A stretch of 39,760 nt of DNA from Patescibacteria group bacterium (GTDB taxonomy: Bacteria > Patescibacteriota > Minisyncoccia > Phycocordibacterales > UBA1006), in the NCBI GenBank assembly GCA_028286885.1, contig JAQBQS010000006.1, positions 1 to 39,760 on the forward strand, written 5' to 3'. The notes below the pieces were generated by a model. That model was not told where the DNA came from, searched no databases, and saw nothing but the letters and a program-made list of their open reading frames with translations. Positions 3,970-39,760 of the stretch are shown in pieces. Within the stretch, counting starts at the first letter, position 1. Each line of letters starts with the position of its first letter. The translations under genes and the position numbers were made by a program.

Positions 3970-4795
3970 ACTGGCTAGTATACACGACATTTGCCATGGC
4001 AAGCCACATATCTATCCCCACATCCTCGGCTCGCGCGGTCGGCGCCAGTCCTACGGTTTTCATGGCACTTTCGACGATGCTTGGCTCGAGAATATTTTTC
4101 AAGTTTCCCGCGAGCATTTTGCGCTTCTGCGCGAATCCCGCCTTCATGACTTGGAAGAAAACTTCCTCGTGATGCTTGGTTTTGAAATGGCTGCGGGAAA
4201 TTCCATTGATTGAAATAATAGCCGAGTCTACCTTCGGTGCGGGTACGAAACTCCCGGCTTTCACGGTACCTATATAAGAAGGATTCCCATAGGCTTTGAC
4301 GGCAATCGACAGGATCGATCCCTTTCCTGCGCCGCCTGTCTTCTTGTTTTTGGCGACAATTCGCTCGGCAACTTCCTTTTGAACGAGCAATACCATCTGT
4401 TTTGGCTGAAAATCGGCTGAAAGGAACTTTTCAATGATGGCGCCTGTTATATTATAAGGAATGTTTGCAACCAGCTTGTAATCGCCTTTTTTTGTCCATT
4501 TTTTCAAGTTTTCAGGATCGAATTCCAAAATATCCCCATTTATAAGGCTTAAGGTGCCTTTTTTGATGTCCGTGGCGTATTCTTCCGACAGATGACTATA
4601 TAATGAGTCGTCTTTTTCAACGGCCACGACCGTCGCGCCTGATTCTACGAGCTTTTTGGTGAGCGCTCCAAGTCCTGGTCCGATTTCAAGGATAACTTCC
4701 CCTTCTTTTGGATCAGCAGCATCGATGATGTTGTTCAAAGCCCCTTCGGACTTTAAAAAGTTCTGCCCCAATGACTTTTTAGGGATGTGGTTCAT
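3947..4795 (-). CDS. rsmA: 16S rRNA dimethyladenosine transferase (KsgA/RsmA)
   Basis: MNHIPKKSLGQNFLKS..., VILEIGPGLGALTKKL, NIPYNITGAII motifs; start at MNHIP preceded by TATAGT. Confidence 0.95.
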   Translation of the reverse strand: MNHIPKKSLGQNFLKSEGALNNIIDAADPKEGEVILEIGPGLGALTKKLVESGATVVAVEKDDSLYSHLSEEYATDIKKGTLSLINGDILEFDPENLKKWTKKGDYKLVANIPYNITGAIIEKFLSADFQPKQMVLLVQKEVAERIVAKNKKTGGAGKGSILSIAVKAYGNPSYIGTVKAGSFVPAPKVDSAIISINGISRSHFKTKHHEEVFFQVMKAGFAQKRKMLAGNLKNILEPSIVESAMKTVGLAPTARAEDVGIDMWLAMANVVYTSQYESDERS

Positions 4796-4830
4796 GCGAA
4801 TGACTATATCACAAGAAACAAAAAAACGGC

Positions 4831-6789
4831 CTACCAATCCAGGTAAACCGTTTTAATTGGGCTCGGCGCATCGCCGCCGAAACTGTCTTCTCGGATAATA
4901 ATTTCTTCCGGAATGTCGGCGAGGAATTCGGACGGCATGTTGAATGTCTGCTCGCCGTAAATCGTTCGCATCATCGCGTACGACAGCATCAGGCATTTTC
5001 GCGCGCGCGTGAGCGCGACGTAGAACAGGCGGCGCTCTTCTTCCTGATCCTCGATCGTTTTCTTTTCGTCGAATCCGTCATGAGGAAACAAGCCTTGTTC
5101 GAGTCCGCCGATGAAAACGTAATCGAATTCCAAACCTTTGGCCGAGTGAATGGTCATCAGCTTCACGCCGGATTTTTTATTCGCATCGTCGAGCTGATCC
5201 TGATCTGATTGCAACGCAACGTCTTCGAGCATTTTTTGCAAAGGCTCATCTTCCGGTTCGATGGTATCGTAGCGCGTTGCAAACGTTACGAGTTCCTCCA
5301 GGTTTTCCAGTCGTTCGTGATCGTCCTCGGTTCCATTTTTATAGATATCGTAGAATCCTGATTTTTCGATCACGAATCGCATAAGTTCGGAGGGTGTATG
5401 GTTGGATGCGTAATTTGCAATTAAGTCGAGAAGACTTTCGAATGCGTCATATGATCTGCGTTGTGCCGGCGGCAGATCGGTTTTCATTCCGGAAAATACT
5501 TTCGCTACTGCCGCCGGCCCAAGGCCTCGTTTCGGCTCGTTGATAATTCGTTTGATATCTGACAATCCGTCGCGATTAAACGCTGCGCGAATGTAGGCAA
5601 CAGTATCCTTGATTTCCTTTCGCTCGAAGAACTTCGTGCCAAGGAGCTGGTACGGAACGCCCGAATGCAGGAACGCTTCCTCAAGGACACGCGACTGGAA
5701 GTTTGTTCTATATAATACGGCGATTTCCGTTGGACTGTTTCCTTTGCTGATCAGTTCCTCAGCTGTTGCCGCAATATGGCGCGCTTCGTCGCCTTCGTTC
5801 ATGGCGGTGAAGAGTTTTATTTTCTCGCCGTCGCCTTGCTTGGTGCGGAGTTCCTTGTGGATGCGCGCCGTATTTTTCTTGATCACCTCGTCGGCTGCGG
5901 TCAAAATATTTTTCGTCGAGCGATAATTTTCTTCGAGGAGAATGACTTGGGATTCGGGATAGTCTTTTTCAAAGTTTAGAATGTTTCGCAAGTTCGCGCC
6001 GCGCCATGAATAGATGTTCTGGTCGGTGTCGCCTACGACGCACAAATTGTGATGCGATTCGGCAAGAAGCTGCACGATTCGATACTGGACCTGGTTCGTA
6101 TCTTGATACTCGTCGATGTGGATGTATTTCCATTCATTCTGAAGTGCTTTGCGAACCGGAATATTTTTTTCGAGAAGCTCGAGCGTTTTGAGCAGCAAGT
6201 CATCAAAGTCCACGCCGGATTCTTTTGATTTCAGTTCTTCGTATTTCGTCCAAACGGCGGTGACAATTTCAGTAAACGCCGAATGCGTCGCTTTGGCAAA
6301 ATCTGCTGCCGAGAACCCGTCTGATTTCTTGGATGAAATAAAATTTCTAATTTTTTTTGGTTCATGGACCTTGGGATTTATTCCCAACATTTCCATTGCT
6401 TCTTTCACGATCTTCATTGTGTCCTGCGAATCCAAAATGGCGAAGCTTTTTTTCAAGCCGGCTTCTTGGTGAAATCTGCGCAGGATGCGAACGCCGAGCG
6501 AGTGGAACGTGCAGAGCAATGGCACCTCGTGAAATCTGACCTGATCAGTTCCTCCTTTGTCGGCTTCGAGCATGTGCATCACGCGTTCACGCATTTCCTT
6601 GGCTGCCTTGTTGGTGAACGTAATGGCAAGAATGCTTCTTGGGTGAACGCCCTGATGGATCAGGTGATAGATGCGATGTGTCAGTGTTTTTGTTTTTCCT
6701 GTTCCGGCTCCCGCAACAATCAAAAGCGGTCCCTCGGTTGCGAGTACTGCCTCGGCTTGTTTTGGATTTAGTGTTTCGAGATAATTCAT
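4831..6789 (-). CDS. UvrD/PcrA-type superfamily 1 DNA helicase
   Basis: LNPKQAEAVLATEGPLLIVAGAGTGKTKTLTHRI, FDDLLLKTLELL, HIDEYQDTN, VVGDTDQNIYSWRGA, TIHSAKGLEFDYVF, LFYVALTRAR motifs. Confidence 0.95.
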   Translation of the reverse strand: MNYLETLNPKQAEAVLATEGPLLIVAGAGTGKTKTLTHRIYHLIHQGVHPRSILAITFTNKAAKEMRERVMHMLEADKGGTDQVRFHEVPLLCTFHSLGVRILRRFHQEAGLKKSFAILDSQDTMKIVKEAMEMLGINPKVHEPKKIRNFISSKKSDGFSAADFAKATHSAFTEIVTAVWTKYEELKSKESGVDFDDLLLKTLELLEKNIPVRKALQNEWKYIHIDEYQDTNQVQYRIVQLLAESHHNLCVVGDTDQNIYSWRGANLRNILNFEKDYPESQVILLEENYRSTKNILTAADEVIKKNTARIHKELRTKQGDGEKIKLFTAMNEGDEARHIAATAEELISKGNSPTEIAVLYRTNFQSRVLEEAFLHSGVPYQLLGTKFFERKEIKDTVAYIRAAFNRDGLSDIKRIINEPKRGLGPAAVAKVFSGMKTDLPPAQRRSYDAFESLLDLIANYASNHTPSELMRFVIEKSGFYDIYKNGTEDDHERLENLEELVTFATRYDTIEPEDEPLQKMLEDVALQSDQDQLDDANKKSGVKLMTIHSAKGLEFDYVFIGGLEQGLFPHDGFDEKKTIEDQEEERRLFYVALTRARKCLMLSYAMMRTIYGEQTFNMPSEFLADIPEEIIIREDSFGGDAPSPIKTVYLDW

Positions 6790-37116: not shown

Positions 37117-38601
37117 CTATTTCACCCCATGTTTCACATGAAGCTTCTTCACCTCCTCCTCTTCCAATTCCTCTTTTGCTTCCTTTCCTGCTTCACCGAG
37201 CGCTCGCAGTTCCGCGTCTGATAAATGTTCAAGTTCTCGCACGCGGCTACTCAGAGTTTCAACGGTATTCTTGGCAGGATCTTCCAAGACTTCCTCAAGA
37301 AGCGCGTGCAGCATCCATCCCATCCTCGGTCCCGGTTTCACACCGAGATCTTTCATGAGATAATGCCCATCGATTTTCAGCTGTGAAACGCTGATCGGAT
37401 CACGCAGACATTCTTCAATCATTGCGTGATATTTGCGCAATCGATAAGGCGCTTCAGGCTTGCTCATCCCGACACGATCGCATTCGCGGATCTTCATCAG
37501 TTCCCAGATGTTGTCTGCGCCGATATTTGCAATGATGCGGCGCACGGGCGACAGCGTGATCGTTTCCGTATCTGAGAAGAACATATGATAGCGAACGAGT
37601 TTCACGACCATGTCGGTGTCGGCTTTGGAGAATTTCATGCGCTCCATTATTTTTTGAGCCATGCGCGCGCCGACAACCTCGTGTCCGTAGAACGTCCACT
37701 CCTTTTTCGTGCCGGGCCTTCGCGTGCGCGGTTTCCCGATATCGTGAAACAAGGCGGCAAGTCGAACATGAAATGAGAAATTCTTGTCGGCCGCATGCTG
37801 GCATGCCATGACGAGGTGCGTGAAGACGTCGAACTTGTGCACGCCTCCCTGTTCGCATCCGTCGCCTTCCATTATCTCGGGCAAAATCATTTCGAGAATG
37901 CCAAGCTGTTTCATGAGTCCAATTCCAATTGCGGGTTCGTTTGAATTCACCATTTTCACAAACTCATCGCGAATGCGTTCTTGTGAAACGTTCGCAAGTA
38001 AATTTTTCTTTTTCAAGATGGCATCGAGCGTTTCATGTGAAACAGCAAACCCAAGTTGTGCAGCAAATCGAACTGCGCGCATCATGCGCAAGGCGTCTTC
38101 GTTGAATCGTTCGTTCGCTTCTCCTACCGTGCGGATGATTTTATTTTTTATATCTGCAAGTCCGTTATAGAAATCAGTTGTTTCATGTGAAACAGGGTCG
38201 TATGCGAGTGCGTTCATCGTAAAGTCTCGGCGCATCAAGTCGTCGGATAATTTTTCCGCGAACTCAATGGCGTCAGGATGTCGATTGTCGCTATAAGTCG
38301 TTTCACGGCGATACGGCGTGATCTCGATCTGTCGGACATTCGAATCGTGAGGTTCGTTTTCAAATACGACCGCAACGGTTCCGAAGGTATTCTCGTAAAC
38401 GACCTTGATTCCATCTTCTTCTTTTCCTTCAAACAGTTTCACGATATCCTCCGGTTTTGCATTTGTCGTAATATCAAAATCTTTGGGAACTTTTCCCATG
38501 ACGAAATCGCGCACGCATCCGCCGACGAGGTATGCGTCATATCCGGCAGCTTTGAGCGTTTCCGTTACACGTGAAACGTTTTGTGGAATTTCAAATTTCA
38601 T
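37117..38601 (-). CDS. cca: CCA-adding enzyme / poly(A) polymerase family tRNA nucleotidyltransferase with HD domain
   Basis: YLVGGCVRDFVMGKVPKDFDITTNA, RRDFTMNALAYD, RFNEDALRMMRAVRFAAQL, HD motif LFHDIGKPRT. Confidence 0.95.
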   Translation of the reverse strand: MKFEIPQNVSRVTETLKAAGYDAYLVGGCVRDFVMGKVPKDFDITTNAKPEDIVKLFEGKEEDGIKVVYENTFGTVAVVFENEPHDSNVRQIEITPYRRETTYSDNRHPDAIEFAEKLSDDLMRRDFTMNALAYDPVSHETTDFYNGLADIKNKIIRTVGEANERFNEDALRMMRAVRFAAQLGFAVSHETLDAILKKKNLLANVSQERIRDEFVKMVNSNEPAIGIGLMKQLGILEMILPEIMEGDGCEQGGVHKFDVFTHLVMACQHAADKNFSFHVRLAALFHDIGKPRTRRPGTKKEWTFYGHEVVGARMAQKIMERMKFSKADTDMVVKLVRYHMFFSDTETITLSPVRRIIANIGADNIWELMKIRECDRVGMSKPEAPYRLRKYHAMIEECLRDPISVSQLKIDGHYLMKDLGVKPGPRMGWMLHALLEEVLEDPAKNTVETLSSRVRELEHLSDAELRALGEAGKEAKEELEEEEVKKLHVKHGVK

Positions 38602-38615
38602 AAATTTATTAAATC

Positions 38616-38743
38616 GTCCTCCCGGGCAAGCGACGGCATCGAGCGCGACCCGGGATCCAGGTTCTGACAGCTCTGAATTTCAGAGTAACCAGCCCTGGGT
38701 CCCGGCTCGTCGCCTGATGCAGGCTCCGTCCGGGATGACGGAC
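38616..38743. repeat. long imperfect palindromic intergenic repeat
   Basis: Left CCCGGGCAAGCGACGGCATCGAGCGCGACCCGGGATCCAGG...CTCTGAA and right TTCAGAG...CCCTGGGTCCCGGCTCGTCGCCTGATGCAGGCTCCGTCCGGG are inverted copies. Confidence 0.85.
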
Positions 38744-38744
38744 A

Positions 38745-38975
38745 TTAATTTCCTCTCGCTTCTAAAATTTCTCGCGCATGATCTGCGTCTTCTTGGTTCA
38801 CAAAAACATCGCGTGACGTGGTTGTGGTTCCCAGTTTGTTCGGAAGCCATCCGTCAATTCTCTCGCCACCGATGCCGATGAAGCTTTCAATCCCATGGGA
38901 CTGCAAAAGCCCGCGGATGAGTTCCGGCATATAGTCTGTGCTCGACGAATATATTTTTACGAGATTTCGTTTCAT
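38745..38975 (-). CDS. DUF2007-like small protein
   Basis: NLVKIYSSSTDYMPELIRGLLQSHGIESFI...DVFVNQEDADHAREILEA. Confidence 0.8.
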   Translation of the reverse strand: MKRNLVKIYSSSTDYMPELIRGLLQSHGIESFIGIGGERIDGWLPNKLGTTTTSRDVFVNQEDADHAREILEARGN

Positions 38976-38988
38976 GTGAAACGTCTTG

Positions 38989-39059
38989 TGCAACCAGAGA
39001 GAATCGAACTCTCACCTCGTCCTTGGCAAGGACGCGTTCTACCACTAAACCATGGCTGC
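38989..39059 (-). tRNA. tRNA-Gly(GCC), CCA not encoded
   Basis: GCAGCCATGGTTTAGTGGTAGAACGCGTCCTTGCCAAGGACGAGGTGAGAGTTCGATTCTCTCTGGTTGCA; full cloverleaf. Confidence 0.95.
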
Positions 39060-39107: not shown

Positions 39108-39638
39108 TTAGAGCTTTATCCAATAAAAACGGCTGAGCGTTCCGTCTATAACTTCTTTCCTATCAAGAATTCCCTTGTTTTTCTCGATTGTTTTCCAAGA
39201 AGCAGTGTTACTGTCATCGCATGTCAGGAGCACTTTTTTATATCCAAGTTTTGCAACCTTTTTCAGCACAAGTCTTAGCATTTCGGTTGCGTAGCCTTTC
39301 CCTTGGAATTTGGGACGAACGGCATAGCCGATGTTTCCTCCATGCTCGCGGAGCGTCTTGGTGAGCTTGTGTCGAAAGGAAATTCTTCCTACGATTTTTG
39401 TACCAACCATTCCCCACCAGATGGTTTGCTGCACCATCCCCTTCTCCAAATTAATGCCAAGCCGGTCATCGCGGAGCCATTTAAAATAACGAGGCTTTAA
39501 ACTCGAGACAATATGCTTTTCATATCCGGCCCGATCCGGATTATCGATTGGCAATGCCGCAAGGGTTTCCTTCTGAAATGCAATCCATTCTTTCAGATAT
39601 TTCTTGGACGGCAGGACAAGTTTCAAGGATTGTTTCAT
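39108..39638 (-). CDS. GNAT-family N-acetyltransferase
   Basis: GYAVRPKFQGKGYATEMLRLVLKKVAKLGYKKVLLTCDDSNTASWKTIEKNKGIL. Confidence 0.93.
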   Translation of the reverse strand: MKQSLKLVLPSKKYLKEWIAFQKETLAALPIDNPDRAGYEKHIVSSLKPRYFKWLRDDRLGINLEKGMVQQTIWWGMVGTKIVGRISFRHKLTKTLREHGGNIGYAVRPKFQGKGYATEMLRLVLKKVAKLGYKKVLLTCDDSNTASWKTIEKNKGILDRKEVIDGTLSRFYWIKL

Positions 39639-39692
39639 GGAAAACACTATACCATTTACAAATGGCTGAAAAAAGGTTACATTACTTCCCTT

Positions 39693-39760
39693 GCGCCCGT
39701 AGTGAAATGGATATCACACCAGTCTTCGGAACTGATATTCCAGGTTCGAGTCCTGGCGGG
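39693..39760 (+). tRNA. tRNA-Arg(TCG), truncated at window end
   Basis: GCGCCCGTAGTGAAATGGATATCACACCAGTCTTCGGAACTGATATTCCAGGTTCGAGTCCTGGCGGG; anticodon TCG in loop CTTCGGA. Confidence 0.88.

Follow-up and report, generated by a model that had tools for sequence, protein, structure and literature searches.

The five 14-mer palindromes near the end of the window (the whole 39,760-nucleotide stretch analyzed, which is the entire contig C14 of a 16-contig, 845,730-base genome) are very probably genuine chromosomal parS sites and the left arm of a single oriC-flanking centromere, with about 13 sites divided between the end of C14 and positions 519 to 1880 of contig C8. The case for a parS centromere that surrounds a predicted oriC is strong; that it runs without ParA, through SMC-ScpA, we infer by analogy with Streptococcus pneumoniae.

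All five sites read on the plus strand and resemble GTTTCACGTGAAAC, the palindromic core of the widely conserved ParB site. Four of them lie in cca (minus strand, 37117 to 38601), which encodes a CCA tRNA nucleotidyltransferase of 494 residues: site 1 (GTTTCACATGAAGC, 37131 to 37144, two mismatches) at the 3' end of the gene (KLHVKH), site 2 (GTTTCATGTGAAAC, 38030 to 38043; VSHETL, column 216) and site 3 (GTTTCATGTGAAAC, 38180 to 38193; VSHETT) within it, and site 4 (GTTACACGTGAAAC, 38564 to 38577; VSRVT, column 8) at its 5' end. Site 5 (GTTTCATGTGAAAC, 38969 to 38982) overlaps the first codons (TFHMK) of an 82-residue open reading frame (ORF) with a weak DUF2007 match (minus strand, 38745 to 38993) and adjoins a tRNA-Gly (GCC) gene (minus strand, 38988 to 39059; L017:18989-19060). 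Sites 2 to 5 have one mismatch each and fall inside 953 bp. A sequence-only reading had reported these five palindromes, four of them within 1 kb, and all were recovered. Dinucleotide shuffles of the window gave a mean of 0.15 palindromes, and 0 of 100 shuffles reached five. The same reading had described about 11 GTTTCAC/GTGAAAC heptamers in 1.9 kb and roughly as many in the other 38 kb; the counts found were 12 between 37131 and 38982 (1.85 kb) versus 10 in the other 38 kb, with a first-order Markov expectation of 5.4 over the whole window. It was right that the sites are read in different codon frames, although these number just two: VSxxT, for three sites in cca, and LHVK/FHMK, for the cca C terminus and the DUF2007-like ORF. 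Beyond site 5, the window holds a GNAT acetyltransferase gene (minus strand, 39108 to 39647), which separates the parS arm from the predicted origin, and a tRNA-Arg (TCG) gene (plus strand, 39693 to 39760) that is cut by the contig end.

Genome-wide, 13 sites were found at up to two mismatches, five at the C14 end and eight in the first 1.9 kb of C8 (519 to 1880); the rest of the genome contained no further match at this threshold, and a reversed-motif control pattern gave one match genome-wide. Only 1 of the 13 is a perfect 14-mer. C8 begins with an AT-rich stretch, followed by yraN (631 to 1053), an unnamed ORF, and a tRNA-Pro gene. Four of its eight sites are in yraN, and two of the four outside it are in the AT-rich intergenic stretch. 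The yraN sites all encode V-P/S/T-R-E/G-T; each of the four VxRxT peptides of YraN is encoded by a parS copy, a DNA function imposed on protein sequence. Because cca and yraN share a contig in two members of the same genus, G001 (L033) and G003 (L036), the C14 end and the C8 start are probably neighbors. The order on the single G001 contig is cca, tRNA-Gly, GNAT, tRNA-Arg, AT-rich stretch, and yraN, so that the GNAT gene is syntenic and tRNA-Arg borders the predicted oriC and yraN. Sequence overlap between the C14 end and the C8 start was sought and none was found, so the adjacency rests on synteny. The window would then represent one arm of the centromere, with the other arm in and around yraN beyond the contig break, which extends the sequence-only reading. 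The core is multicopy and clustered rather than scattered, with 13 of 13 sites placed in one locus by this arrangement.

The same locus carries the motif in relatives. At up to one mismatch, each of the four genomes in the genus had matches, as did 15 of the 20 in the family, the other 5 having no match at this threshold. In all 15, the sites fall within, next to, or between cca and yraN, and the exact sites turn over. Among 148 genomes sampled from the order, 109 had a match at up to one mismatch, many of them clustered and with up to 11 per genome; the control pattern was nearly empty in the same sample, with few matches. The divergent yraN-cca pair, in many cases accompanied by parS, is retained in "Candidatus Nomurabacteria," Yonathbacteria, Kaiserbacteria, and Paceibacterota. 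A lone near-match in dnaN of G002 (GTTTCAAGTGAAAC, L035:1171) was taken as chance. In genus g6 (L041 to L047), many sites have a central CATATG rather than CACGTG, possibly reflecting a shifted ParB preference.

Within coding sequence, the motif is maintained at the DNA level. Three sites at up to one mismatch were observed in cca, versus a mean of 0.15 in synonymous-codon shuffles, and 0 of 3000 shuffles reached three; at up to two mismatches, cca of G002 and G005 had eight and seven sites, above every shuffle. For yraN alone, the excess was weaker in some genomes. Relatives carry the palindromes at matching synonymous positions, in line with the conservation at DNA and not protein level proposed by the sequence-only reading: the column 216 position (site 2) is occupied in five of five genomes compared, from two genera, and the column 8 position (site 4) in four of four genus members. 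The site 1 column is also occupied in G002 and G003, and site 3 has no counterpart in the relatives compared. Third-position identity was 0.71 to 1.00 at shared sites, which were chosen for motif match, versus 0.37 to 0.49 elsewhere. In the aligned sites the 14-mer tends to be preceded by T and followed by A, which matches the 16-bp parS. Codons, and sometimes residues (VxRET in YraN), accommodate the motif. Codon usage and the conserved peptides of CCA and YraN could instead create the motif with no DNA-level function, and synonymous shuffles do still yield 0.15 (cca) and 0.48 (yraN) sites, those of cca because peptides like VSHET leave room for the motif. However, the cca counts exceed the shuffles, yraN accounts for only half of the C8 sites, the motif is read in two codon frames, unrelated neighboring genes carry the same motif, and sites shift place between genomes yet stay at the locus. 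An artifact of this kind, largely refuted by the site turnover in relatives, the shuffles, and the C8 intergenic sites, is hardly credible.

A centromere of the parS type calls for a ParB, and a full parB is present in the genome. The three outcomes that the sequence-only reading had named as refuting it, namely a scattered motif, a missing parB, and palindromes not conserved at synonymous sites, were thus each checked for, and none was obtained. The single ParB_N protein found (C1, 76.4 to 77.6 kb, minus strand) has ParB_N, HTH_ParB, and C-terminal dimerization (ParB_C) domains and carries GERRLRA and ENLQREDLNP motifs; Spo0J and ParB are among its structurally solved relatives. Noc forms a sister family to ParB, and the best NCBIfam match of this protein by score is Noc (198 bits, below the Noc cutoff of 315), so that the sites might be bound by another ParB-like protein such as Noc, or by a transcription factor regulating cca, the tRNA genes, and yraN. 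Noc sites are spread over the chromosome, whereas those found here are confined to one locus. The protein has R and G, not the Noc-type Q and R, where Caulobacter ParB has R173 and G201, residues described as invariant among ParB proteins and different in Noc (PMC7383237). It is the only ParB_N protein found, most sites are inside genes and not in promoters, and their sequence is that of the parS core. We consider binding by Noc or a regulator very unlikely. A full ParB with parS-type specificity residues was found in 19 of 20 family genomes. This conservation also bears on whether the sites belong to the partition system of an integrated plasmid or phage, given that ParB-parS also serves plasmids and that the sites abut tRNA genes, which are common integration targets. 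The hosts are nevertheless housekeeping genes (cca, yraN, and tRNAs) with synteny conserved over genera, and parB is on another contig beside typA, miaA, and clpB. Conserved synteny and ParB conservation largely refute a plasmid or phage origin, which is exceedingly improbable.

In addition to what the sequence-only reading described, ParA appears to be missing. A PF13614 search of the genome found none (control positive, 14 of 14), and in the 20 draft genomes of the family it gave three matches, of which two, in G013 and G006, look like CooC-type ATPases by sequence and were rejected, and the third was below the cutoff. ParA, sought with PF13614 in draft genomes, appears to be absent from all 20. 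The ParA-activating peptide at the ParB N terminus is LGRGL-like. The ParB proteins here begin about 10 residues before ParB_N, with no N-terminal extension and no LGRGL-like peptide visible. Neither the ParA ATPase nor the ParA-activating peptide of a canonical ParABS system was therefore seen, and both components that a ParB-parS-SMC system without ParA would use, SMC and the kleisin ScpA, are present. SMC (C7 [L068], 4111 to 6342, minus strand) has 743 residues versus 1181 in the NCBIfam model; both head halves are present, and no hinge domain was detected by Pfam even at an E value of 10. ScpA is encoded at C16, 113572 to 114222, and was found in 16 of 20 family genomes.

The origin is predicted to lie between yraN and cca, tens of kilobases from dnaA. 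The AT-rich segment between these genes holds a nearly invariant DnaA box, TGTGGATAA, near a coding-strand switch, and the yraN-cca intergenic regions of 16 genomes share an aligned core of the pattern CTGTGGATAACTnnGGGnATAnnGnnGATAAA, oriented alike with respect to yraN; by our estimate, an exact 9-mer occurs by chance about 0.01 times per kb. At L016:320-350 and in relatives (16 genomes), the DnaA-box core reads TGTGGATAA..GATAAA, tens of kilobases from dnaA. In the genus, 9 to 13 TGTC-N-TTT repeats, mostly TGTCGTTT, surround the predicted oriC; at L016 (C8) 240 to 500, L033 1608 to 1830, and L036 5313 to 5560 they are 40- to 160-fold denser than in the flanks, and they are weaker in other genera. 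GC skew in the window was too weak to place an origin. On contig C2 of G016, coding-strand residues (plus/minus) change from 3864/16503 before parS to 15786/2237 after it, and skew rises from -0.059 to +0.035; the strand switch (61 kb) and the skew minimum (75.5 kb) bracket parS (70 to 71 kb), with dnaA at 94 kb. On C6 of G005, skew is negative again 14 kb past parS.

The parS cluster could be real and oriC could instead lie at dnaA-yidC, as dnaA-dnaN with yidC and yidD is the classical origin neighborhood and an exact DnaA box is located just upstream of dnaA. In sampled stretches of a complete Kaiserbacteria chromosome, moreover, cumulative GC skew reaches its interpolated minimum at about 72 kb, closer to dnaA (86 kb) than to yraN-cca (147 kb), with very weak skew that leaves this minimum ambiguous. 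Against an origin at dnaA, the coding strand of this chromosome switches at about 150 kb and not at dnaA, the bracketing in G016 centers on parS, and the DnaA-box core is conserved at yraN-cca in 16 genomes. An origin at dnaA-yidC is a serious but unlikely alternative. The origin-proximal parS cluster proposed by the sequence-only reading is supported by what relatives show in their DnaA boxes, skew, and strand switch. A further addition to that reading is that dnaA is not at this locus.

With the sites as an oriC-flanking centromere, the single ParB would bind the palindromes, close as a CTP clamp, and slide over cca, yraN, and the origin, producing a dense ParB patch. Because no ParA was found, this patch would most likely be a loading platform for SMC-ScpA that organizes and separates newly copied origins, as in S. 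pneumoniae; SMC loading by ParB is uncertain because the SMC is short and lacks a recognizable hinge. S. pneumoniae and Staphylococcus aureus likewise have chromosomal ParB, origin-proximal parS, and SMC but no ParA (PMC7333895, PMC7022226). They differ in that parB is on another contig here, the lineage is Paceibacterota, and the SMC is short; S. pneumoniae has 4 parS sites near oriC (PMC7022226), versus about 13 within roughly 5 kb here. In Caulobacter crescentus, the cluster is similarly dense, with the strongest five sites within 5 kb and sites in essential or high-fitness-cost genes (PMC5815017), but ParA is present, and here it is cca and yraN that host the sites. Bacillus subtilis Spo0J-parS has the identical 14-bp core, and the ParB proteins are homologous in their CTPase and DNA-binding domains (6sdk), whereas its strongest sites are kilobases to tens of kilobases apart (PMC5815017) and Soj (ParA) is present.

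The kind of ParA-less parS centromere described here is known; parS sites occur in essential genes of Caulobacter (PMC5815017) and number 20 or more in Streptomyces and Listeria (PMC7333895); the lineage, the placement, and the predicted origin appear to be undescribed in the literature searched. Literature searches on parS or oriC turned up nothing direct for Patescibacteria or CPR, and no paper retrieved dealt with parS and ParB together in Patescibacteria. How Patescibacteria segregate their chromosomes has hardly been described. The cca-yraN locus would readily mark the origin and the centromere in draft assemblies, and it would show minimal cells that naturally segregate without ParA as well as, clearly, two unrelated protein genes under selection at the DNA level. 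We suggest only tentatively that a whole order of Paceibacterota may segregate its chromosome in this ParA-less way, with ParB on a parS array in protein genes around a relocated oriC (yraN-cca, tens of kilobases from dnaA, with TGTC-N-TTT repeats) coupled to a shortened SMC without a recognizable hinge.

Seven orphan GTTTCAC/GTGAAAC half-sites were also observed within cca (window 37335 to 38436). They are reminiscent of the half-parS sites bound in Pseudomonas aeruginosa (PMC7022226, PMC10419367); their use by ParB is putative, and, unlike those of P. aeruginosa, they are concentrated at the centromere.
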